IMG/VR virus record: IMGVR_UViG_3300027969_000230
Location: 1 to 36,503 of that record
Direction: 5' to 3' (one strand)
DNA: 36,503 nucleotides
Source: a virus
How positions within the stretch are numbered: the first letter of the stretch is position 1; each line of letters begins with the position of its first letter. This document shows, piece by piece, positions 5,111 to 35,150 of this stretch. A model generated the notes under the pieces. The model had not been told where the DNA came from. It did no database searches and saw nothing but the letters and a program-made list of their open reading frames with translations. The position numbers and the translations under genes were made by a program.

Positions 5111-6679
5111 ATGAAACACTTGAAACTATTTGAAAATTTTATACCCGAAGCACGCGAATCTGATTTAGAAGGTTTGGCTGACTTGGGACTTGGTCCATCT
5201 CAACTTGAATGGGAGGTAGAATACGATGAGGATACTGAGAGCATGGAAAGATCCGATAAGCAAAAAATGTACGAGTATGAATCCCCAACTGGAGCTCACA
5301 TTACTAGGGTTGAAGGGGTAATCGAAGCATTTCAAACCAACTTAGACATTTACTTTAGCAATGAAGATAAAATTCAAATGCACATTAAATTCTCACAACA
5401 CCCTACATTTAAAGGCAGCTCCGCTTTTCAAGTTAGACATGGTGGTAAATGGCACTCATTGCTTAGTATTGACCAAGCTGAAGAATGGTTACAGAAAGTA
5501 GAAGACTCAGGCTCGGCCGTTCAGCCAATATTCTATTATTACGAAGAGTTTTTAAAAACTTTAAATGAAGGTTTAAATATTACAACTAATGAGATGATGA
5601 AGCCGGACTATACTCGACTACGCTTATTCATTAGAGCTTTACGTGATTTACCAATTGACTCAAATACCGTACTTAAAATACGTGGTTTAATTAATTCTCG
5701 AATGATTGATCCGTATCTTGATAGACTCACTATCTTAGCTGAAGTAGGCCGAACCTTTTCGGATATTCCAGGTATTAGTGAATTGGTTGCAAAGTTTAGC
5801 AGACCACTTACTGAAGCTCGTGAGATTGAGCCGCATGAAGAAGCTGAACTAGCTAATATGAAAGACACAGTTGATGACTTAAATGGCTTAATTGAATTAG
5901 GTTTAATCGATGATTCCGGATATCGGAAAGAGATGGTTGCTATTACTAAAGCTTTTAACAAATTTATTAAGGGTTTAAATTTAGATCGTAAAGATCAAGC
6001 GGATCTTGATCTGTTAAAATCTCTTGGCAAAAAAGCCGGCCAAGACTCATTAATTGGCTTAGATACAGCTGGTGCAAAAGCTCTCTTGGCAAAAGGTTTA
6101 CATCTGGTTTCCAGCCCAACCCAATTGGCAAACGGTTCATTAATATTTTCGGTTGACCCGAATTACAGACGTAGCGATGGATGGGGTATTGGATTTTTTC
6201 CTGGGCCAAAGGTTATCAGGCGTATGACCCCAAAACAAATTAATATTGGGGTTTGGTCAAGACGTGCTGGCTCAATGGATATTGCAATAAAACATTTTAG
6301 AGACACAACTAGTAATCTAGATTTCTATAATAAGGCAATGTTATGGGCGGCTGACAATATTGATTTTGAACATGCAGTAATGTATCCTGAAAAGAGCATA
6401 TGGAAATATTATAAAAAGAAAAAAAAGGCTATTACTAAAAGATCAGAATCAGACGAGCTACGTGTACAAGCTGATGAACTTGCATCAGAAACCAGAATCA
6501 TGCCGTATCAATCCCCGGCAGATCGAATTATTGCACTGACCAAGTACATTGAATCTTGGAAATTAAGACTTAAAGCTGCTCAGCTTGATAATAGCCAAAA
6601 AGACATATTTGATGCAGAGCAAAAGATTGCACATATGGAACTTGATATTGCTAACTTAAAGAAACACGGTTATAATTAA
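5111..6679 (+). CDS. Large putative capsid-targeted protein with a second internal cleavage-like site
   Basis: The 522-residue protein begins MKHLKLFENFIPE followed by A, a clear targeting-like module, then LADLGLGPS as in its neighbours. A second site of the same style, RPLTE followed by A, lies at E235/A236, and shortly after it comes LIELGLIDDS, a second copy of the DLGL motif. The protein thus looks like two family units joined head to tail. If a prohead protease cuts both sites, two polypeptides of about 220 and 290 residues result. The second half has a Trp-rich segment (GWGIGFFPGPK) and a helical, Lys-rich C-terminus likely to form coiled coils. No enzymatic family is recognised. A terminator follows. 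Confidence 0.65.
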   Translation: MKHLKLFENFIPEARESDLEGLADLGLGPSQLEWEVEYDEDTESMERSDKQKMYEYESPTGAHITRVEGVIEAFQTNLDIYFSNEDKIQMHIKFSQHPTFKGSSAFQVRHGGKWHSLLSIDQAEEWLQKVEDSGSAVQPIFYYYEEFLKTLNEGLNITTNEMMKPDYTRLRLFIRALRDLPIDSNTVLKIRGLINSRMIDPYLDRLTILAEVGRTFSDIPGISELVAKFSRPLTEAREIEPHEEAELANMKDTVDDLNGLIELGLIDDSGYRKEMVAITKAFNKFIKGLNLDRKDQADLDLLKSLGKKAGQDSLIGLDTAGAKALLAKGLHLVSSPTQLANGSLIFSVDPNYRRSDGWGIGFFPGPKVIRRMTPKQINIGVWSRRAGSMDIAIKHFRDTTSNLDFYNKAMLWAADNIDFEHAVMYPEKSIWKYYKKKKKAITKRSESDELRVQADELASETRIMPYQSPADRIIALTKYIESWKLRLKAAQLDNSQKDIFDAEQKIAHMELDIANLKKHGYN

Positions 6680-7403: not shown

Positions 7404-8219
7404 ATGAAATATATTAAACTATTTGAATCATTTATTGCAGAAGTCGCAGGTTATCCGTTGGTTGCTGCAACCTCAGCGGTTAAAGGTTGGGCTGATCAAG
7501 GCGATGGAACATGGATGGTTAAGTGCACATTAGGTAGAATTTATATAGCAACTGCCGAAACTAAAAATAACGGCAACGTTTCAGTATTTTTAACAGCAAA
7601 TGATCCGGCAACCGTAAAAAGTCTTCAAGCATTAGGTTGTAAAGAAACAGCTCCAGCTAGCGGAGTCTATAAATTAGTAGATAAAGATAAAACCGAATAT
7701 TCTTATAATAAAATGTTTAGTTTAACTTTAACTGATGTAAAGACTGGCGATCCAATTTTAGTATCAATTGCAAATGTACTAAACAAAGTGCAAGCTGCAG
7801 CTACTACTACGCAAACCGTAAGTGACTATACTGGTCTTAAAAATTCAACTACGGCCAATGATAAAGTTAAAGCTCTACAGACTGCAATTATTGCCAGTGG
7901 AAATGCGGCTGCTGCAAAAGCACTTAATGATAAGGGCGGAGCTACCGGAATTTACGGTCCTGAAACCGCTGCAGCCATTGGAATCCTAATTGACACCCCA
8001 ACTGCTCCACCGTCTGAAATTACAAAAGAGATTAATACTAAGATCCAAGCTAAATTAACCATTGATAAAACTGCTGGTCAAAAATACGCAGATGATTTCT
8101 TTGGAACGGTTACTGATCCAAACGATCCGACCAAACAAATTAAAGTAGGAGATGTAATCCGACAACAGCAAGCTGCTGATACCGCTGCGGTTACAACTAC
8201 CACAACTAACAAACCATAA
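7404..8219 (+). CDS. Putative capsid-targeted protein with PG-binding-like segment
   Basis: The 271-residue protein begins MKYIKLFESFIAE followed by V, one of the closest matches to the T4 signal MKTYQEFIAE, with predicted cleavage after E13. Residues about 14-130 are beta-rich. Residues about 150-190 (VKALQTAIIASGN, then GIYGPETAAAIGIL) resemble a peptidoglycan-binding type 1 repeat, where GxxGPxTxxAV is the hallmark. The tail is Ala/Thr-rich and probably disordered. A head-packaged protein that touches peptidoglycan could act during DNA entry. That is inference; the repeat may simply be structural. Confidence 0.65.
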   Translation: MKYIKLFESFIAEVAGYPLVAATSAVKGWADQGDGTWMVKCTLGRIYIATAETKNNGNVSVFLTANDPATVKSLQALGCKETAPASGVYKLVDKDKTEYSYNKMFSLTLTDVKTGDPILVSIANVLNKVQAAATTTQTVSDYTGLKNSTTANDKVKALQTAIIASGNAAAAKALNDKGGATGIYGPETAAAIGILIDTPTAPPSEITKEINTKIQAKLTIDKTAGQKYADDFFGTVTDPNDPTKQIKVGDVIRQQQAADTAAVTTTTTNKP

Positions 8220-8904: not shown

Positions 8905-9471
8905 ATGATTGACAAACTTGTAACTGGTAGAAATACCTCATTTCTAAAAGTCTTAGAAATTTTACAAAACACGTATGGCGAAACTCCAATTAATATAATC
9001 GAGACTGGTTGTATTCGAGGAACTAGCGAAGTAAGCAAAATGGGAGATGGTTGGAGCACATTTAACTGGGAATTCTATGCAAAACAAACTGGCTCAACTG
9101 TATATGTAGTTGATATAAATGCTGAACATATTAAACGCTCCCAAGAAATTGTTCCTGAAAGCAAGTTTGTTAAGTATAACCTAAGCGACTCAGTTGAATA
9201 TTTACAAAAGTTTGATAAAAAGATTGATCTGCTTTTCCTAGATAGTTTTGACTATTGTGGAGATGAGGAGAATGTTAGAGCATGTCACAATCATTCTCTT
9301 AATGAAACCCTTGCGGCTTGGGATAAATTAAATGACCATTGCTTTATTTTAATAGACGATGTCTTTAATACTGCATGGGACGGTAAAGGTAAATTAACAA
9401 TACCTTATCTACTTGAAAATGGATTTACTTTAGAGTATTTTACCGATCAACAAGCTTTATTAAGAAGATGA
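8905..9471 (+). CDS. Class I SAM-dependent methyltransferase-like protein
   Basis: The start is taken at the ATG at 8905, after the late promoter; an upstream TTG at 8869 would overlap the previous gene. The 188-residue protein shows a Rossmann-type order: motif I IIETGCIRGTS (residues 31-41), VYVVDIN (67-73) ending the second strand, DLLFLDSFDY (109-118), and CFILIDDVF. This resembles the methyltransferase 24 group often found beside glycosyltransferases. The substrate cannot be read; a sugar, glycan or small molecule is likely given the two glycosyltransferases that follow in overlap. Confidence 0.65.
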   Translation: MIDKLVTGRNTSFLKVLEILQNTYGETPINIIETGCIRGTSEVSKMGDGWSTFNWEFYAKQTGSTVYVVDINAEHIKRSQEIVPESKFVKYNLSDSVEYLQKFDKKIDLLFLDSFDYCGDEENVRACHNHSLNETLAAWDKLNDHCFILIDDVFNTAWDGKGKLTIPYLLENGFTLEYFTDQQALLRR

Positions 9472-10124
9472 AGTACTTCAACTATTTTGATGGAGCGCTC
9501 TACATAAATTTAGAAAGCAGACTTGATCGTAGAGAATCATTTGAGAACAAGGCGTTTGACGCTGGCTTAATAATTCCTAGATTTAATGCAATTGCGTTTA
9601 ATCCAGATGAGGTAGCTAAAAATCCAAATGATCCTAATTGGCATAAAAAGGTTAGCAGTGCAGCCTCTCATCAAGAGTGTATTAAACTTGCAAAGAATAA
9701 CGGTTGGGAAAATTGCCTTATATTTGAAGATGATTGTATTTTCATAGATAATTTCATGAGTAAAGCTGAAGCCTGTATTTCTGATTTAAAAGAGAGAGAT
9801 TGGGATATGTTCTTTTTTGGCGGAGAACCTGCAAGCAAATGTAATCCAATCACTCAGAATATTGTACAAACTGACGGAGTTTATGGAGCCCATGCCTATG
9901 CAATTAATAGCCGGTTCTATGATACCGTACTCTCATATCCAAATGATCGTAACTTAATTGATGTTATTTACATTCACTGCTCAATCCATAGCAAAAAATT
10001 CTATTTAGCTAAGGAATTATTAATTTGGCAAGATGATGATCGTTATCCATCTGATCTTTGGATCAAATCAGGAAGCGAAAAAATTTATCGAGATGCCTAT
10101 ACAAAATTTGTACCTAATGAATAA
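9468..10124 (+). CDS. Glycosyltransferase family 25-like protein
   Basis: The 218-residue protein has the GT25 pattern: YINLESRLDRRESFE at residues 12-26, a nucleotide-sugar-binding EDD at 87-89 (LIFEDDC), and GVYGAHAYAINSRFYD further on. GT25 enzymes, such as LgtB/LpsA, add galactose or similar sugars to lipopolysaccharide. The start overlaps the methyltransferase stop (ATGA), so the two are coupled. In a phage, the target may be virion protein, host surface glycan or modified DNA; the sequence does not decide. Confidence 0.8.
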   Translation: MKYFNYFDGALYINLESRLDRRESFENKAFDAGLIIPRFNAIAFNPDEVAKNPNDPNWHKKVSSAASHQECIKLAKNNGWENCLIFEDDCIFIDNFMSKAEACISDLKERDWDMFFFGGEPASKCNPITQNIVQTDGVYGAHAYAINSRFYDTVLSYPNDRNLIDVIYIHCSIHSKKFYLAKELLIWQDDDRYPSDLWIKSGSEKIYRDAYTKFVPNE

Positions 10125-10923
10125 ACTAAGTTTTGTTTGCACAACCTTTCGTCGATATCGTTGTGTTGAACGTATAATTGAACAATATCTACAACAGGAT
10201 TATCGAAATTCAGAGTTAATTATTTTTAATACTGACGAAGAAAACCCATTTAGTTTGGACCCAAGTCTTGACTATTCAAATATTATTATAGTTAACAATG
10301 GAATTGACTATGAGACTCAACTGCCGTACACTAATCGTGGAGCTATTTGCAGAGATGCAGTGACTCATGCAACTGGAGACTATTTCATGTTAGCAGATGA
10401 CGATGACATTTATTTGCCATGGCATTTTAGACAAGCAGTTGAAGGAATTCTGTCAAACGGAAAAGACTCATGGAAACCTGAACAAAGCTTCTTTGCAACT
10501 CCTTATAAACTTGAAATGGTAAGCAATACAATGGAAGCTTCCGTAATTGTTAAGATGCAAAGAATTAAAGAAATTGGGTTTAGAACTGATGCTACTGGGT
10601 ATGAGGGCTTAAGTTGGTATACCCAGCTTAGAGATGAAGGCCAATTAGACGAGCATAACTCTGAATACGTTCCATCTTATTGTTTTAATTGGTCTGATCC
10701 AACTGAACTTGCTGGACATAAACAAAGCGGTGATATTAATAACCCTAATAATTTTGATAATCATAAGCTTAGCTCAAATGATATTTCAAATAAACCGTTA
10801 AATCGTTGTGGTCTTGCAATTATAACAGAATGTTATTCAAAGTATTATAATTATTTACAATTAAATTCAAAAAGGTTTAATCCAGTCCTCTGGGATAAAT
10901 ATGTAAAAATGTACATCAGTTAA
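10117..10923 (+). CDS. Glycosyltransferase family 2-like (GT-A fold)
   Basis: I take the ATG at 10117, which overlaps the previous stop, and not the upstream in-frame ATG at 10033 inside the GT25 gene. The 268-residue protein begins MNKLSFVCTTFRRYRCVERI, as GT2 enzymes do. It has RGAICRDAVTHATGDYFML followed by ADDDDIYLP (residues 94-102), the DxD metal/nucleotide-sugar site. It ends the three-gene cluster methyltransferase-GT25-GT2. The acceptor is unknown. Confidence 0.8.
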   Translation: MNKLSFVCTTFRRYRCVERIIEQYLQQDYRNSELIIFNTDEENPFSLDPSLDYSNIIIVNNGIDYETQLPYTNRGAICRDAVTHATGDYFMLADDDDIYLPWHFRQAVEGILSNGKDSWKPEQSFFATPYKLEMVSNTMEASVIVKMQRIKEIGFRTDATGYEGLSWYTQLRDEGQLDEHNSEYVPSYCFNWSDPTELAGHKQSGDINNPNNFDNHKLSSNDISNKPLNRCGLAIITECYSKYYNYLQLNSKRFNPVLWDKYVKMYIS

Positions 10924-10933
10924 ATCGCTGACT

Positions 10934-10943
10934 GATAAATAAC
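10934..10943 (+). promoter_or_regulatory. T4-type late promoter
   Basis: GATAAATAAC lies five bases upstream of the nucleotidyltransferase-like gene, one of the cleanest late boxes in the window. Confidence 0.6.
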
Positions 10944-10947
10944 CTAG

Positions 10948-12090
10948 ATGAAACACTTAAAACCATATACATCATTTATTAATGAGGGCCAATTTTATCA
11001 AGGGGAACTTAACCCAGTATTTTGGCAAGATGGTCAATTTGACCAAGAGACCAGAACTAAACTATTACAAATAGCTACCGATTTTTATACTGACCTTAAA
11101 GTTGAGGCTCCAATTATTGATATTCATTTAACTGGCTCTTTGGCAAATTTTAACTGGACCGAACACTCTGACCTTGATGTACACGTTCTACTTGACTTCT
11201 CAACGATCGGAGAGGATGTTGAGCTTGTTAAAAAAGCAATGGACGGCTTACGATTCGTTTGGAACTTAAGACATCCAGTTAAAATTAAAGGATTTGATGT
11301 TGAACTCTATGCACAAGACCATAAAGAGCCTCACGTTGCATCAGGTTTATATTCTTTGCTAAAAGGCGAATGGATTATTGAACCAAAGGCAGATGAGCCA
11401 AAGATTGATGAAAACGACGTTTTACGTAAAGCCGAAGCTTATAAAGTAGAAATTGCTGAACTTGAAAAAGAGGTTGATCAAACTGATTCTGAACAAGCAC
11501 GTGAAGCTCAAGACCGTATCTCTGCCCTAAAGCAAAAGATAATGAAAGCTCGTAAAGAAGGTCTTGCCGCAAATGGCGAGTTCTCTATTGAGAATCTAGT
11601 ATTTAAACAGTTACGTAATGATGGATTTATTGAAAGACTTATAAACCTTGGAGCGAAAGCTTATTCTCATATCTATTCAGACCCAGCTGATTCGCTAGAC
11701 CGTGACGAGAGAGTAAATGAATCATTAGTTGGAAAAGGTAGTACGGTATTGGTGCTTGGCCCAAAAGTTGAAGGTGCTAAACGATTATTCCTGTTTCATG
11801 CTGATTGGTCAAGGCAAGTTGAAAGAAATGGTTGGACTGTAAACATGGTTGGTCTTACTGCACCAGTGTGTATCATTCAAGAACAGGATGGCAGACTAGT
11901 TGCAAAGACTATATCAATCAGTCCGGGTAATTTAAAAAAATACGCAGGTCTTACTGACTATAATGTGGTCCTAAATTCCAAAACAAAAACTCCTTTTTGG
12001 CATCAAGCGGTTAAGTATACAAATGCTGCTGCTTTATTAAAAGATTTGTCCGCAAGCATTCGATCAATACCTGAAGTTACATTTAATTAA
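10948..12090 (+). CDS. Capsid-targeted nucleotidyltransferase-like protein
   Basis: The 380-residue protein begins MKHLKPYTSFINE followed by G, a targeting-like module with predicted cleavage after E13. Residues about 50-125 carry the nucleotidyltransferase signature: LTGSLANFNW at 61-70, then SDLDVHVLL with D75 and D77 as metal ligands, and FDVELY (116-121) as a candidate third acidic site. A charged coiled-coil-like helix follows (about 150-200). At 256-259 VNE is followed by S, identical to the cleavage site of the protein at 1298, so the C-terminal ~120 residues may be released separately. The C-domain is not recognised. Delivering a nucleotidyltransferase with the DNA would let it act on host molecules at once; this is inference. 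Confidence 0.7.
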   Translation: MKHLKPYTSFINEGQFYQGELNPVFWQDGQFDQETRTKLLQIATDFYTDLKVEAPIIDIHLTGSLANFNWTEHSDLDVHVLLDFSTIGEDVELVKKAMDGLRFVWNLRHPVKIKGFDVELYAQDHKEPHVASGLYSLLKGEWIIEPKADEPKIDENDVLRKAEAYKVEIAELEKEVDQTDSEQAREAQDRISALKQKIMKARKEGLAANGEFSIENLVFKQLRNDGFIERLINLGAKAYSHIYSDPADSLDRDERVNESLVGKGSTVLVLGPKVEGAKRLFLFHADWSRQVERNGWTVNMVGLTAPVCIIQEQDGRLVAKTISISPGNLKKYAGLTDYNVVLNSKTKTPFWHQAVKYTNAAALLKDLSASIRSIPEVTFN

Positions 12091-22934: not shown

Positions 22935-23024
22935 GGAGAGGTACCAAAGCGGTTTACTGGACCAGTCTTGAAAACTGGCGATCTTGAAAGGGATCCGTGA
23001 GTTCGAATCTCACCCTCTCCGCCA
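22935..23024 (+). tRNA. tRNA-Ser(TGA)
   Basis: A class II cloverleaf with acceptor GGAGAGG/CCTCTCC, anticodon loop CTTGAAA (anticodon TGA), a long variable arm and T-arm GTTCGAATC. CCA is encoded at 23022-23024. It stands alone, about 6 kb from the main tRNA array. Confidence 0.93.
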
Positions 23025-24006: not shown

Positions 24007-24561
24007 GTGAAAGCTAAGAAATTTAAACAATTTGTAACCGAAGCAATTAAGCGTAGATCTGCTAGTATCAGTGTTGACGTAGAAGAGTGTGTATTTGTTA
24101 TTAATGATACCATTTATTTTATGACAGTTGAACTTGATGGAACGGTTGACCATGAACCAGCAGATTCGTCAGTTGGACTATCTGCTTCAACTTATGTAGA
24201 CGAGTGGTGGTTAAATAGTATTCCTTTTTGTGAAAAATTCACAGATCCAAAAATTAACCAACAAGTATTAGCTGAAATCTCTAATATCATAAATGATATA
24301 ACTGGCCTTCGTGAATTAGACTTAGTTGCTGATTCAGTTGAAAAAGCGGTAAGCGACTATCTTTGGAAGGCCTTAAATGAGTATCCAATGGAAGAGGTGC
24401 CTGATGCTGAACTATCTCAAGTAACGTCAATCCTAGCTAAACAAATTGATGACTCTAGTTATAGGAATTTATTATATCAAGATTTAACTGGAAACTTTGA
24501 CGAACGAGCTACTAGGGAATTAGATAATGAAGTTGAACATTATGATAACGGCCGATGGTAA
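24007..24561 (+). CDS. Putative capsid-targeted protein, tandem paralogue 1
   Basis: The 184-residue protein starts at a GTG and reads MKAKKFKQFVTE followed by A, a clear targeting-like module. The body is acidic and matches the next gene: VFVINDTIYFM, DEWWLNSIPFCEKFTDPKIN, ITGLRELDLVAD, MEEV and a helical end. The pair arose by tandem duplication. LRELDLV resembles the DLGL motif of the 3579-6679 genes. No enzyme family is recognised. Confidence 0.65.
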   Translation: MKAKKFKQFVTEAIKRRSASISVDVEECVFVINDTIYFMTVELDGTVDHEPADSSVGLSASTYVDEWWLNSIPFCEKFTDPKINQQVLAEISNIINDITGLRELDLVADSVEKAVSDYLWKALNEYPMEEVPDAELSQVTSILAKQIDDSSYRNLLYQDLTGNFDERATRELDNEVEHYDNGRW

Positions 24562-25118
24562 TGAAAGCTAAAAACTTTAAACAATTTGTAACTGAAGCAA
24601 GTCAGTTTCCAGCCACTAGAGATGTTCATGTAGCCTTTGAGGACCTGGTATTTGTCATTAACCAAATCATCTATCGTATGGGTATTGAAATTGCAGCGAA
24701 GGTTGGTGACCGTGATGATGAAGAGATCCGACATTTTGGGTCTAGATATTTTGCTGAAGACTGGTGGCTGTACAATATTCATTATTGCGAAAAGTTTAAA
24801 GATCCCGAAATTAATAATCTTATCTTAACTGAACTTGCTGAAGCAACAAATGATATATTAGGGCTTGGAGAATTAGGCCTAACCGATGCATCTCAAAAAG
24901 ACATACAGTCCAGTATTATAGATGAGGCATTTAGTAAATACTCAATGGAAGAGGTCTCTAGTGCTGACCATGATCAAGTAGAGTCAATTTTAACTGATCA
25001 GTTAAAAAATGACAAATATACTGAAATTTTATATAAGTCAAATGATACTTTTGCTCAGCAACTTAATAATATTCTAGCCGACGAAATTGGTGATTTAAAC
25101 GGAACTGATGATTACTAA
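24561..25118 (+). CDS. Putative capsid-targeted protein, tandem paralogue 2
   Basis: I place the start at the ATG at 24561, which overlaps the previous stop, so that the protein begins MKAKNFKQFVTE followed by A exactly like its neighbour; an ATG at 24555 would add two residues. The 185-residue body aligns with paralogue 1 (VFVINQIIYRM, EDWWLYNIHYCEKFKDPEIN, ILGLGELGLTD, MEEV) but is diverged, so the duplication is not recent. Acidic, no known domain. Confidence 0.65.
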   Translation: MKAKNFKQFVTEASQFPATRDVHVAFEDLVFVINQIIYRMGIEIAAKVGDRDDEEIRHFGSRYFAEDWWLYNIHYCEKFKDPEINNLILTELAEATNDILGLGELGLTDASQKDIQSSIIDEAFSKYSMEEVSSADHDQVESILTDQLKNDKYTEILYKSNDTFAQQLNNILADEIGDLNGTDDY

Positions 25119-25159: not shown

Positions 25160-25708
25160 ATGCAAATGTTAAAATTTACACAATTTGTAAACGAAGCTCA
25201 AATTAAAGATAAAGCGCTTGTTTCAAAATTGGATAGAATCCATGAAATTAAAGAAAGACTTAAAGAACTAACTGCTGAAACCAAGTCAATTGAAGGCGAA
25301 TTAAAAGAGTTTGATGCTAGTATTAAACCAGTATTTGATGCAATGAAAGTCTTAAATGATAAATTGGCCTTAACTGAGAAGTACGTAATTAAGATTACTA
25401 GATACGGTGGAGAAGGTACGTCAATTGCATATGGTAAAGCAGTTGAACAAGCTCTTACTCAAGTTGATGAAGCTGCTCAAGCAATTATTAACGAATGTGT
25501 TAGAGTAAATACTGCAGTAACTAGTGTAAAACACTCTTATGATATTCAAAAGGTTGAAGAATCTAAATTATCTGATAAAGTAAGGGCAGTAGTTGCTAAA
25601 CTATCTGATAAAATTAAATCGGCGGTTGAGAAATTCAAATCAGTATTTGCAACTAAGACAGCTAAGATTGATCAAGCTAACCAAAAATTAGCAGGTATCG
25701 TAAAGTAA
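25160..25708 (+). CDS. Putative capsid-targeted coiled-coil protein
   Basis: The 182-residue protein begins MQMLKFTQFVNE followed by A; an internal ATG two codons on would give MLKFTQFVNE. Cleavage after E12 would leave a Lys-rich protein with long helices: KLDRIHEIKERLKELTAE at about 24-41, and LSDKVRAVVAKLSDKIKS near 143-160. The basic, helical body is the most like T4 internal proteins IPII/IPIII in character. A late promoter and a run of virion genes follow this logic. Family otherwise unknown. Confidence 0.65.
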   Translation: MQMLKFTQFVNEAQIKDKALVSKLDRIHEIKERLKELTAETKSIEGELKEFDASIKPVFDAMKVLNDKLALTEKYVIKITRYGGEGTSIAYGKAVEQALTQVDEAAQAIINECVRVNTAVTSVKHSYDIQKVEESKLSDKVRAVVAKLSDKIKSAVEKFKSVFATKTAKIDQANQKLAGIVK

Positions 25709-29141: not shown

Positions 29142-29217
29142 GGTGCGGTAGCTCAGTTGGTAGAGCAAAGGACTGAAAATCCTTGTGTCGCTGGTTCGAT
29201 TCCAGCCCGCACCACCA
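29142..29217 (+). tRNA. tRNA-Phe(GAA)
   Basis: Acceptor GGTGCGG/CCGCACC, anticodon loop CTGAAAA (GAA), T-arm GGTTCGATTCC, discriminator A, CCA encoded. Confidence 0.95.
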
Positions 29218-29220
29218 AAT

Positions 29221-29297
29221 TGGAATATAGCTCAATTGGTTAGAGCATTCGCCTGATACGCGAAAGGTTATAGGTTCGAGTCCTATTATTCCAACCA
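29221..29297 (+). tRNA. tRNA-Ile(GAT)
   Basis: Acceptor TGGAATA/TATTCCA, anticodon loop CTGATAC (GAT), normal T-arm, CCA encoded at 29295-29297. Confidence 0.93.
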
Positions 29298-29310
29298 GTT
29301 CTTTAAATAC

Positions 29311-29381
29311 ATAGGTGTAGTGCAATGGTAGCATGCCGGTCTCCAAAACCGTTGATGGAAGTTCGAATCTTTCCACCTGTG
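29311..29381 (+). tRNA. tRNA-Trp(CCA)
   Basis: Acceptor ATAGGTG/CACCTGT with one T-G pair, anticodon loop CTCCAAA (CCA), T-arm AGTTCGAATCT. CCA is not encoded. Confidence 0.9.
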
Positions 29382-29400
29382 CAAATTTTCTAAATTATAG

Positions 29401-29408
29401 TATAATAG
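29401..29408 (+). promoter_or_regulatory. -10-like box inside the tRNA array
   Basis: ATAGTATAATAG lies between tRNA-Trp and tRNA-Gln and may drive the second part of the array. Confidence 0.45.
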
Positions 29409-29453
29409 CTATTAATTAGAAATCAGGTCTTTGACATGTTGGTTATTAAAAAT

Positions 29454-29524
29454 TGTCCTGTGGTGTAACGGCAGCACGTCTGGTTTTGGTCCAGAAAATT
29501 GAGGTTCGAATCCTTGCGGGACAA
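29454..29524 (+). tRNA. tRNA-Gln(TTG)
   Basis: Acceptor TGTCCTG/CGGGACA, anticodon loop TTTTGGT (TTG), T-arm GGTTCGAATCC. CCA not encoded. Confidence 0.92.
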
Positions 29525-29537
29525 CGCAAAAATATAT

Positions 29538-29612
29538 CGCGGGGTGGTGGCAGATGGTCAGCCCGCCAGCCTCATAAGCTGGAGATCGTCGGTTCGAATC
29601 CGGCCCCCGCTA
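29538..29612 (+). tRNA. tRNA-Met(CAT), initiator-like
   Basis: The acceptor CGCGGGG pairs with CCCCGC, leaving an unpaired first position (C1 against T72). This is the kind of mismatch that marks bacterial initiator tRNA (C1-A72). Anticodon loop CTCATAA (CAT). The usual three G-C pairs in the anticodon stem are not present, so initiator identity is tentative. Confidence 0.8.
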
Positions 29613-29617
29613 CTAAA

Positions 29618-29698
29618 TTGCGATATTGGTGTAAGGTCGTTCTCATGAGACGATTAGGTAGATATACCCCTGAGAGGTTCGAATCCTCTAATCGCAAC
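29618..29698 (+). tRNA. Atypical tRNA-like gene with long variable arm
   Basis: Acceptor TTGCGAT/ATCGCAA (seven pairs) and T-arm AGAGGTTCGAATCCTCT are clear, and a variable arm GGTA-GATA-TACC makes it class II. The anticodon stem TCGTT/GACGA holds loop CTCATGA, which would read CAT, odd for a class II tRNA. The D-arm is short. It may be a diverged or degenerate tRNA. Confidence 0.55.
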
Positions 29699-29806
29699 CC
29701 GGATCCATGCACGTCGAGCACAAACCAATTGCTCTTCAGGTAGATTTGCATGGATAAACAACCCGTCACGGTATACCCACAGGGTAGGAGTGAACTGAAG
29801 AGAAAC
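29699..29806 (+). ncRNA. Structured tRNA-array spacer with possible pseudoknot
   Basis: Two interleaved helices are present: ATCCATGCA (29703-29711) with TGCATGGAT (29747-29755), and CTCTTCAG (29732-29739) with CTGAAGAG (29795-29802). The order A-B-A'-B' is that of a pseudoknot. A third hairpin (TCAC..TACCC-ACA-GGGTA..GTGA) lies at 29766-29793. No T-arm or other tRNA sign is seen. It could be a functional small RNA or a processing element. Confidence 0.5.
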
Positions 29807-29878
29807 GGTCCTGTAGTTAATCGGCTATAATATCGCCCTGTCACGGCGAAGTGCCGGGTTCGATTCCCGGTGGGACCG
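29807..29878 (+). tRNA. tRNA-Asp(GTC)
   Basis: Acceptor GGTCCTG/TGGGACC with G-T pairs, anticodon loop CTGTCAC (GTC), T-arm CCGGGTTCGATTCCCGG. CCA not encoded. Confidence 0.92.
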
Positions 29879-30165
29879 CAACGAGTAAGAGGTACTCGGA
29901 GAGATTGGTCACATTCTGTAAAAAAGTGATGGTGGTAAAAAAATCCTCGACCTAATGAGGTATCGATTCGGACTAACGATAGCAAGATCCTGCATCGCCG
30001 ACGTAAGGATTGACAGGTTTTTATGTGGTAAGACACTAATGAAAAAGACCTATTGTATTGGGGGTAGCTATCTGGGCTATCAAACAGCAGTAGGAGATAT
30101 GGTTCTCGAAACAGTCAGAGAAACCCGTTAAAATCTAGTTTAGCAAATCTCACTAAGCGAAACTT
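29879..30165 (+). ncRNA. 287-base structured spacer with tmRNA-like 5' motif
   Basis: No gene is seen. There are several stems: CGAGTA/TACTCG (29882/29893), CCTC/GAGG near 29945-29960, an imperfect long hairpin 30016-30050 around GTGGTAAGACAC, and GGTTCTC/GAGAAACC around 30101-30125. GGATTGACAGG at 30007-30017 resembles the GGATTYGACRG found near the 5' end of tmRNA, and ACTAAGC occurs at 30152-30158 near the end. No tRNA-like acceptor half or clear tag frame was found, so a tmRNA is not shown. Confidence 0.4.
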
Positions 30166-30237
30166 GGCCCGTTAGTCTATCGGTTAGGACACGCCCCTTT
30201 CACGGGTGAGAGACGAGTTCGATTCTCGTACGGGCTA
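30166..30237 (+). tRNA. tRNA-Glu(TTC)
   Basis: Acceptor GGCCCGT/ACGGGCT, anticodon loop CTTTCAC (TTC), T-arm GAGTTCGATTCTC. CCA not encoded. Confidence 0.92.
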
Positions 30238-30297
30238 CCTTCGCAAGTAGAAACTGTCGGCCGCGTAAAGGTGCCGCTACTTTAAAAGTCAGTATTT
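30238..30297 (+). other. Hairpin spacer
   Basis: AAGTAG (30245-30250) pairs with CTACTT (30277-30282), enclosing CGGC/GCCG. No gene. Confidence 0.5.
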
Positions 30298-30370
30298 GCC
30301 TCCTTAGCTCAGCTGGTAGAGCAACTGATTTGTAATCAGTAGGTCGCTGGTTCGATTCCGGCAGGAGGCT
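30298..30370 (+). tRNA. tRNA-Thr(TGT)
   Basis: Acceptor GCCTCCT/AGGAGGC, anticodon loop TTTGTAA (TGT), T-arm CTGGTTCGATTCCGG, discriminator T. CCA not encoded. Confidence 0.93.
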
Positions 30371-30541
30371 CACATCATATCAGGGTCGAGCCGTATTGTG
30401 CCATGATATGAAATAGACTTGAGAGGATTAGAGACGGCCGTGACTACCTCAAGTCGAAAAATTAAATGGTGTCTTGGTACGCTCTGACGAAAGTTAACGA
30501 CAAGGTCTCGGTAGGCGGTTCTAGACCGATCCTACCCATTT
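30371..30541 (+). ncRNA. Structured spacer with two hairpins whose loops can pair
   Basis: Hairpin 1: TCATATCA (30375-30382) with TGATATGA (30404-30411). Hairpin 2: GACTTGAG (30416-30423) with CTCAAGTC (30448-30455). GCCGT in loop 1 (30390-30394) is complementary to ACGGC in loop 2 (30434-30438), a possible kissing pair. A third strong hairpin (GTAGG-CGGT...ACCG-CCTAC) is at 30511-30535. No tRNA arm is recognisable. Confidence 0.45.
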
Positions 30542-30617
30542 GCGGGAGTAGCTCAGTTGGTAGAGCGCAACCTTGCCAAGGTTGAGGTCGCCGGTTCGAA
30601 CCCGGTCTCCCGCTCCA
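30542..30617 (+). tRNA. tRNA-Gly(GCC)
   Basis: Acceptor GCGGGAG/CTCCCGC, anticodon loop TTGCCAA (GCC), T-arm CCGGTTCGAACCCGG, CCA encoded at 30615-30617. Confidence 0.95.
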
Positions 30618-30670
30618 AGTGGATCAAACGTGTAGTAACCACAGGCGCGATATCCGCCACTACACTCTAA
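30618..30670 (+). other. Hairpin spacer
   Basis: GTGTAGT (30630-30636) pairs with ACTACAC (30659-30665) around a GGC/GCC inner stem. No gene. Confidence 0.5.
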
Positions 30671-30742
30671 GCGAGTATCGTATAACGGTTATTACTCCAG
30701 CCTTCCAAGCTGGAGATCTCAGTTCGATTCTGAGTACTCGCT
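30671..30742 (+). tRNA. tRNA-Gly(TCC)
   Basis: Acceptor GCGAGTA/TACTCGC, anticodon loop CTTCCAA (TCC), T-arm CAGTTCGATTCTG. CCA not encoded. A second glycine tRNA, with a different anticodon from the one at 30542. Confidence 0.92.
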
Positions 30743-30827
30743 CTAACTGGTGGCTCCCTTAATGGTTCGAGGCCGACCTCAAGCATCAGTGATACGCCAT
30801 ACAGGGGGCGAAAGCGTATCAAACTAT
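30743..30827 (+). other. Hairpin spacer
   Basis: A perfect 8-bp stem TGATACGC (30790-30797) with GCGTATCA (30814-30821), preceded by TCGAGG/CCTCAA. No gene. Confidence 0.5.
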
Positions 30828-30905
30828 CGGGATATAGCGTAACCAGGTTATCGCGCCTGCTTTGGGAGCAGGAGGCTGGAGGTTCGAATCCTCCTATCCC
30901 GACCA
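30828..30905 (+). tRNA. tRNA-Pro(TGG)
   Basis: Acceptor CGGGATA/TATCCCG, anticodon loop TTTGGGA (TGG), T-arm GAGGTTCGAATCCTC, CCA encoded at 30903-30905. Confidence 0.95.
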
Positions 30906-30911
30906 AAAATA

Positions 30912-30997
30912 TGCCATATCGCAGTAGTTGGAGAGACTGGACGGTCTGTAAAACCGTTGACTTACGTCTGAATAGGTTCGAATCCTATATATGGCAC
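30912..30997 (+). tRNA. tRNA-Tyr(GTA)
   Basis: Class II: acceptor TGCCATA/TATGGCA, anticodon loop CTGTAAA (GTA), long variable arm, T-arm AGGTTCGAATCCT. CCA not encoded. Confidence 0.93.
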
Positions 30998-31115
30998 AAT
31001 GTAATAAGTCCAGGTTCGAGTCCTGGTAATAGCATAATTGGCAATGCGTCACGTGGAGTGAAGATTTGGGTTCGAGCCCCAGTATTGGTGTAACAGGTAG
31101 CACAATCATCTTATT
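30998..31115 (+). pseudogene. Rearranged tRNA remnants (orphan T-arms and D-arm)
   Basis: Two complete T-arms lack matching acceptor and anticodon arms: CCAGG-TTCGAGT-CCTGG at 31010-31026 and TTGGG-TTCGAGC-CCCAG at 31066-31082. A D-arm-like GCAT..ATGC segment lies at 31032-31045, and GTG-TAACAGGTAG-CAC at 31088-31103 looks like the D-arm of tRNA-Gln. I could not fold any combination into a full cloverleaf. They look like tRNA pieces left by recombination, though a permuted or highly unusual tRNA is not excluded. Confidence 0.5.
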
Positions 31116-31189
31116 GGACCTTTAGCTCAGTTGGTTAGAGCAGCGCACTCATAATGCGAAGGTCTCAGGTTCGAGTCCTGAATGGTCCA
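31116..31189 (+). tRNA. tRNA-Met(CAT), elongator (or Ile2)
   Basis: Acceptor GGACCTT/ATGGTCC (one mismatch), anticodon loop CTCATAA (CAT), T-arm CAGGTTCGAGTCCTG. The full first pair shows it is not the initiator. If C34 is modified to lysidine it would read Ile codon ATA instead. Confidence 0.88.
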
Positions 31190-31192
31190 CTT

Positions 31193-34478: not shown

Positions 34479-35150
34479 ATGATGAATGAATTCCAAAAGT
34501 ATGCAATGAGCGAGCACGGGGTGTCCTCATTGAAATTAGATTATTACAGTAAACAAGTTGAGTCATCAATGACTCCTTATATCTTAGAAGAACGCGAGTT
34601 ACGGGTTACTCAAATGGATATTTTTTCCAGATTAATGAGGGACCGTATTCTTTGGGTTGCTGGTCCAGTAAATGATTATATGTCAACTATTGTGCAGGCT
34701 CAGTTAATGTTCCTAGATTCAGTTGATGGTACTGATATTACAATGCATATTGATTCTCCAGGCGGATCAGTTAAGTCTGGACTTTCAATGGTAGATGTAA
34801 TGGATTATATTAAAGCCGATATCCGAACAGTAAATACTGGAATGGCTGCATCAATGGGATCTATTCTCTTGGGTGCTGGCACAAAGGGTAAGCGTAGTTC
34901 CCTAAAGCACTCAACCACAATGTTACATCAATCTTCTGGTGGATTTAGCGGAAATATCCAAGACGCTGAAGTTGACTGGGCTGAATGGCAAAAAGTTAAT
35001 CATGAACTATTTGTATTATTAGGTAAATACTGCGGTAAAAAACCTGATCAAGTAAAGAAGGATGCAACCAGAGACTTTTGGTTAAATGCAGAAGAGGCCG
35101 TAAAATACGGAATCATTGATGAGATTGTAAAATCTAAAAAATCTAAATAA
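34479..35150 (+). CDS. clpP: ClpP-like serine protease
   Basis: The 223-residue protein has the ClpP catalytic triad in family spacing: S125 in GMAASMGSI, H150 in TTMLHQSSGG and D199 in TRDFWLNAEEAVKYGIID. Substrate-binding HIDSPGGSVKSGL is at about 88-100. Cellular ClpP forms a 14-mer and works with ClpX/ClpA. A phage copy might redirect the host chaperones or degrade host proteins. Some phage prohead proteases share the ClpP fold, but the complete AEEAxxYGIIDEI ending is that of true ClpP. It is followed closely by a P-loop kinase. Confidence 0.88.
   Translation: MMNEFQKYAMSEHGVSSLKLDYYSKQVESSMTPYILEERELRVTQMDIFSRLMRDRILWVAGPVNDYMSTIVQAQLMFLDSVDGTDITMHIDSPGGSVKSGLSMVDVMDYIKADIRTVNTGMAASMGSILLGAGTKGKRSSLKHSTTMLHQSSGGFSGNIQDAEVDWAEWQKVNHELFVLLGKYCGKKPDQVKKDATRDFWLNAEEAVKYGIIDEIVKSKKSK

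Follow-up and report, generated by a model that had tools for sequence, protein, structure and literature searches.

A putative head-packaged nucleotidyltransferase precursor with a conserved internal protease-like site in a T4-type jumbo phage

The nucleotidyltransferase locus and its product

The window is the whole stretch of DNA that was analyzed, a 36.5-kb fragment of a virus from IMG/VR which carries T4-like topoisomerase genes and 14 predicted tRNA genes. Approximately five of the 14 predicted tRNA genes (22935–23024 and 29142–31190) encode CCA, and some of the minus-strand open reading frames (ORFs) in these intervals probably are spurious. A 380-residue ORF on the plus strand (10948–12090) was found where a preliminary description of this DNA had placed it and comprises a capsid-targeting-like sequence, a nucleotidyltransferase, a linker and a C-terminal domain. 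Two adjacent glycosyltransferase genes lie nearby (9468–10124 and 10033–10923); the second is listed with a start that falls within the first and probably is too early, as a relative begins MHKLSFVCT. Structure prediction, proposed in the preliminary description as a check on the two halves of the 380-residue protein, was performed with AlphaFold2 on 65 sequences. The window protein was modeled with a mean pLDDT of 85, and values <50 were confined to residues 1–13 and 248–255 which correspond to the targeting tag and linker, respectively. Two confident parts that join at the putative internal site discussed below were predicted: residues 17–243 form a palm and a helical half, and residues 262–380 form a mainly beta domain. 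The pTM of 0.57 is the kind of value anticipated when the relative orientation of two parts is not fixed.

The palm (residues 17–146; 10996–11385, plus strand) was delineated by conservation and by Pfam and phrog_36119 matches. It includes the GS...DLD core noted previously, as G63-S64 and D75-L-D77 (GS-x10-DLD), together with E119, which conforms to the Pol-beta superfamily pattern of GS-x(9–11)-DxD and a third acidic residue. Residues G63, S64, D75, D77, H79, E119 and Y121 are invariant across the 65 aligned homologs. The helical second half (residues 154–243; 11407–11676, plus strand) was assigned from conservation and from the helices of the AlphaFold model (155–177, 181–212, 214–224 and 227–243), and contains the invariant residues R202, N216, F219, K220, L222 and R223. 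The best reading of these sequence data is that the protein is a catalytically intact NMP-transferase.

The transferase family is known but uncharacterized. The phrog_36119 profile, listed as of unknown function in PHROGs, matched the window protein with an E value of 1.6e-38 and matched 65/65 aligned members, and at least 597 viral loci of the family were recovered in one scan. The Pfam model NTP_transf_2 scored 19.2 bits (E 0.0016) with the window protein, which does not reach the curated cut-off of 21, and was matched by all 16 close members with a best E value of 0.00018. The top PDB fold matches were nucleotidyltransferases with E values of 0.003–0.09, none of which was significant. Overall, the sequence and fold searches lean to Pol-beta-type nucleotidyltransferases (NTP_transf_2, SidM_N, AAD(9), LinB and CdnC), all below threshold. 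The AAD(9)/ANT/LinB adenylyltransferases, CdnC, MntA and the N-domain of DrrA share the GS...DxD...acidic active site and the combination of palm and helical half, but none matches the 10948 protein significantly, whether in sequence or in fold (best PDB E 0.003). Thus, a substrate cannot be transferred from known Pol-beta-type enzymes. The RlaP, CCA-adding and MntA family models gave no Pfam or NCBIfam match above cut-off, the MntA model producing E values of 0.04–0.08 with two relatives. Protein AMPylation of the DrrA or MntA kind was not adopted by homology, as the likeness is confined to the active-site stretch and is below thresholds. Addition of CCA to the phage tRNAs also was considered and set aside: several tRNAs in the window lack an encoded CCA, yet nothing ties the enzyme to them. 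A viral model in BFVD that includes the transferase (A0A6J5M1C6) is named as an amidoligase.

Targeting sequence, late-promoter-like motif and packaging

The first 13 residues of the protein (10948–10986, plus strand) resemble a capsid-targeting sequence with a predicted cut after E13. The N-terminus reads MKHLKPYTSFINE/G, where the slash marks the predicted cut, in agreement with the targeting start that had been proposed. The assignment draws on the pLDDT values of <50, on ortholog variants and on tag sites in the phage group. Orthologs possess FINE/G, FITE/G, FLNE/G, FLTE/G, WIAE/S or WLSE/S at this position, and the tag agrees with 47 distinct tag sites of the group in which P3 is I, V or L in 45 cases, P2 mostly is N, and P1 is E throughout, the last being imposed by the search pattern. 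The protein also possesses the tag that typifies T4-type internal proteins, namely ~10–20 N-terminal residues ending in [L/I/V]-x-E. Targeting-like starts were present in 8 of the 41 window ORFs of at least 100 residues compared to 0.10 expected from internal stretches, and in 19 of 240 ORFs in the 271-kb relative G005 compared to 2.4 expected; these frequencies are far above chance. Further tagged ORFs in the window, all on the plus strand, include 1298–1879 (MKNVIKRFTQFVNE/S) which provides a comparison site, 5111–6679 (MKHLKLFENFIPE/A), 7404–8219 (MKYIKLFESFIAE/V) and 25160–25708 (MQMLKFTQFVNE/A). The ORFs at 24007–24561 and 24555–25118 are adjacent tagged paralogs (KQFVTE/A) that apparently arose by duplication.

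Tag-like sequences also were noted in other settings. Dozens of tag-like starts (MKYLKxFNES, MIKKYLxFIKES) occur in the 635-kb phage LR745206.1 (L183–L202), whose transferase homolog has FVQ/S in place of the tag glutamate. The Q-for-E tag of such megaphage homologs was considered as a new protease specificity and this was rejected, since E is the last residue of other tags in that genome. The transferase is preceded by extra N-terminal parts with tag-like ends, e.g. AKYQE/S and NFKKYFE/N, in L104, L109, L119 and L124. In G005, a 217-residue protein encoded directly after the tail-tube gene (L025:16918–17571) has an internal full tag-like sequence, KRFEQFVNE/N, and an acidic tail.

The T4 late promoter is TATAAATA. 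The motif ATAAATAA, which we take to be close to this promoter, is located at 10935–10942 (plus strand), at a distance of 13 nt from the start codon of the transferase gene, with a predicted transcript start approximately at the ATG. The motif was found 11–13 nt before the transferase ATG in 17/17 orthologs compared, including those with unrelated neighboring DNA. It precedes 35 of 53 tagged genes but 88 of the 472 remaining genes (Fisher p 2.5e-12; 1.3 and 11.3 in shuffles), and the genes with upstream ATAAATAA include those for protease, sheath and tube. In the window, G001, G005 and G007, the motif mostly occupies two distances from the ATG, 12–15 nt and ~24–31 nt. Should ATAAATAA function in the manner of this promoter, leaderless mRNAs that start at the ATG would result from the 12–15-nt class.

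The transferase domain matches Synechococcus phage S-CREM2 at 126174–126677, within gp156 (126012–126725). ORF 156 of this phage is listed as a hypothetical protein, and in CsCl-purified virions it was represented by six unique peptides (15.2% coverage; PMC10665884, Table 3), the authors remarking that CsCl purification might also carry along abundant proteins that are not structural (PMC10665884). The S-CREM2 protein belongs to the same transferase family, has all of the catalytic residues, retaining GG-NANYNYTPYSDIDLH and VELYAQD, and has a tag-like start (MKKLISE/L). In contrast to the 10948 protein, gp156 is ~237 residues long and lacks the C-terminal domain and the internal site, and identity is ~32% over the aligned part. 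A literature search found no naming of S-CREM2 ORF 156 as a nucleotidyltransferase.

These observations bear on whether the 10948 protein instead is an unpackaged early or middle metabolic nucleotidyltransferase whose N-terminus resembles a tag by chance. The strict tag pattern was present in 25 of 80 homologs, many distant homologs have no clear tag, and homologs are located near replication genes in some phages, as might be anticipated for a metabolic enzyme. Against this, the ortholog tags are conserved with protease-like variation, the gene is preceded by the late-promoter-like motif, and a homolog was detected in virions, which makes an unpackaged enzyme highly improbable.

No gp21 or gp23 gene was found in the 36.5-kb window, and evidence for these components comes from relatives, with the capsid-protein check confined to G005. 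A gp21-type protease (Peptidase_S77) scored above the Pfam cut-off in four relatives of 270–271 kb. In G005, the protease is joined to a scaffold-like region of repeats and is encoded beside a capsid protein of the gp23 type (phrog_207 and phrog_138) which itself bears SINE/S near residue 53, and tail sheath and tube genes are present in this 271-kb relative. Fusion of the head protease to long scaffold-like repeats such as YSEYLAENLDKNIA was noted both in G005 (L025:10746–12767) and in the 635-kb phage (L193; LR745206.1 198546–200669). A ClpP-like serine protease encoded in the window (34479–35150) matches several head-maturation-protease families (phrog_94, E 1.2e-34); the phage group with this protease also carries the gp21-type enzyme. 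The G005 capsid protein matched T4-like phages widely, the best matches among named phages being Lak phages of Prevotella. This match, together with a homologous contig binned with Bacteroidetes that is described below, suggests a Bacteroidota host, and the host probably belongs to this phylum.

The internal site and the C-terminal domain

The transferase is followed by a hypervariable linker (residues 244–258; 11677–11721, plus strand) in which pLDDT is <50 at positions 248–255. The internal VNE-S that had been pointed out previously is present as V256-N-E258/S259 (11713–11724, plus strand), and VNE/S comprises the same letters as in FVNE/S of the 1298 ORF. The site was recognized as protease-like from its conservation in all homologs with the C-terminal domain: [V/I/L]-[N/D]-E is kept at the joint in 25/25 such loci, comprising 24 viral loci and one contig binned with an uncultured Bacteroidetes MAG. 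The variants are VNE/S, VNE/A, VNE/N, IDE/S, VDE/S, LDE/S, VNE/D and INE/D; thus P1′ is S, A, N or D, and is not limited to A, S or G, a point against cleavage at the joint. E258 is the sole invariant column of the linker, the remainder of which differs in sequence and, through indels, in length.

Judged on the motif alone, the internal site is weak evidence at chance level. The 380-residue protein contains nine [ILV]xE sequences, and a second strict match, IDE155/N, is located inside the transferase. Across the proteomes, tagged proteins had no significant excess of strict internal sites (25 in 12,966 residues) over untagged proteins (169 in 126,348 residues; p = 0.11). What raises the joint above chance is that E258, V/I/L at P3 and N/D at P2 are invariant within a variable linker, whereas the E155 site is not conserved, E155 being replaced by P or followed by K in relatives. 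The chance expectation for [ILV][ND]E in these proteomes is 0.05 per 25 residues. T4 gp21 cleaves after L/I-X-E (PMC9026906), and the P3 and P2 variation at the internal site, as read from the sequences, is of the kind that the T4 head protease allows. The low pLDDT of the linker between two confident parts further indicates that the site is not buried within one domain, the arrangement that the preliminary description had named as incompatible with its proposal.

The C-terminal domain (residues 262–380; 11731–12087, plus strand) is mostly beta, with pLDDT ~85 over most of its length, and belongs to no known family. No copy without the transferase was found on scanning viral_contigs twice and genome_contigs and phages once each, and no match to the domain was found in the phages collection or among PDB sequences. 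As it was found only in fused form in the contig and phage scans, a stand-alone tagged version was discounted. Foldseek matches, including one to a norovirus-protease-like fold, were weak with low TM scores and were taken as chance. A close relative (L079) with 67% identity over the aligned stretch consists of tag and transferase, ends within the linker and has no C-terminal domain, which implies that the domain is an add-on. Additional modules flank the transferase on either side in L012, L093, L101, L104, L119 and L124. Window and L008 DNA are similar up to 11318, divergent at 11319–11716, and similar again from 11717 which is codon 257, at the site. A simple whole-domain swap does not describe this comparison, as it is the middle that differs, with one breakpoint at the site.

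Three uses of the joint were weighed. In the first, which is favored on the basis of conservation and the structural model, the head protease probably also cuts the protein in two at E258. In the second, the protein would be packaged and cut at E13 only, VNE would be kept as a start or docking motif of the C-terminal domain, and the two domains would act as enzyme and accessory domain. Matches to the motif are common and the C-terminal domain always lies beside the transferase and never alone, both of which suit this arrangement. However, restriction of P3 to V/I/L and of P2 to N/D while flanks and length vary freely is the behavior of a protease site, and the site adjoins a disordered linker; cleavage at E13 only is considered unlikely. 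In the third, the C-terminal domain would be a propeptide or inhibitor that silences the transferase, or anchors it in the core in the producing cell, and that is removed on maturation. T4 Alt and giant-phage proteases shed C-terminal pieces (PMC9026906, PMC10052503) and the domain is fused to this transferase only, but close relatives such as L079 do without it, and it is a folded, sequence-conserved unit of ~120 residues rather than a short tail. A propeptide role is correspondingly very unlikely.

The favored cut at E258 has a possible parallel in the tagged ORF at 5111–6679. The encoded protein of 522 residues has an internal PLTE235/A that is kept in G007 and G001, and is a second apparent two-cargo protein. 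Its homolog in G001 (86585–88693, 702 residues) contains a tandem duplication (39% identity, E 9e-27) in which the second unit starts exactly at LDE/I, as the first does after the tag. In G005, a tagged protein that stands by itself (185148–186293) is similar to the C-terminal part of the 5111 protein. This layout supports a general arrangement of several cargos per tag in the phage group.

A two-cargo precursor and its relation to known systems

The 10948 protein is interpreted, with a probability of roughly 60%, as a late, head-packaged transferase precursor of a T4-type (gp23/gp21) jumbo phage that the head protease converts into two cargos. The packed polyprotein of the preliminary description is supported as regards packing by several independent lines, namely the tag, the late-promoter-like motif, the gp21-like protease in relatives and the virion homolog, and its processing is putative. 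Likewise, release of the transferase from the C-terminal domain agrees with two separately folding parts that meet at the putative site, the cut itself being inferred, as are the cut at E13, delivery, activity and target. The 380-residue precursor would be synthesized late and its first 13 residues would bring it into the prohead core, where a gp21-like protease would cut after E13 to remove the tag and after E258 to produce a transferase of ~245 residues (14–258) and a C-terminal domain of ~122 residues (259–380). Both folded pieces would remain inside the head and pass, along with the DNA, into the next host. At the start of infection, the transferase then may attach a nucleotide to a target in the host, for which a protein or the end of an RNA is preferred here, as a step in early takeover or counter-defense.

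The closest parallels are the internal proteins IPI–III and Alt of T4, which have a short N-terminal tag cut after [L/I/V]-x-E (PMC9026906, PMC3012670). The packed T4 proteins are presumed to be ejected with the DNA, and Alt also is a host-modifying transferase (PMC9026906, PMC3012670). The 10948 protein has the sequence-level features of this system, virion presence being known for the distant homolog only. It differs in that the enzyme is a nucleotidyltransferase unrelated to ADP-ribosyltransferase and in that its two folded domains are separated by a second conserved site. In phages and conjugative elements, polyvalent proteins similarly place several effector domains, among them some Pol-beta nucleotidyltransferases, in one delivered chain (PMC5512222), and were likened to polyproteins by their authors (PMC5512222). 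However, they either stay intact or are freed by peptidase domains of their own (PMC5512222), whereas the 10948 protein would depend on the head protease acting in trans. Polyvalent proteins are recognized by a single chain that combines an embedded peptidase or other effector domains of the set listed for them, which the 10948 protein lacks; searches of Pfam, PHROGs, NCBIfam and PADLOC found no peptidase domain in it. In T4 gp22, gp67 and gp68 and in the heads of the giant phages SPN3US and phiKZ, the head protease also cuts at several sites per protein, but these cuts destroy the scaffold or remove propeptides. Thirteen of the 14 mapped cuts in SPN3US remove N-terminal propeptides and one removes the C-terminal propeptide of the protease itself (PMC10052503); none of the cuts listed in that study parts two folded cargo domains (PMC10052503). 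Packaged host-modifying enzymes of the T4 type are known, whereas the putative head-processed two-cargo layout would be new.

T4-like internal head proteins are a main route by which a phage can strike the host before its genes are read, and few are known beyond T4. With the present analysis, a transferase family formerly of unknown function gains a predicted location, inside the head, and a predicted activity. More broadly, and as a tentative proposal with a little less than an even chance of being correct, T4-like jumbo phages of Bacteroidota may deliver head-processed polyproteins in which one tag serves several effectors and cuts in trans at linker sites precede injection. If so, both the transferase and the tandem proteins of the 5111 type would exemplify this, and head maturation may double as polyprotein processing.
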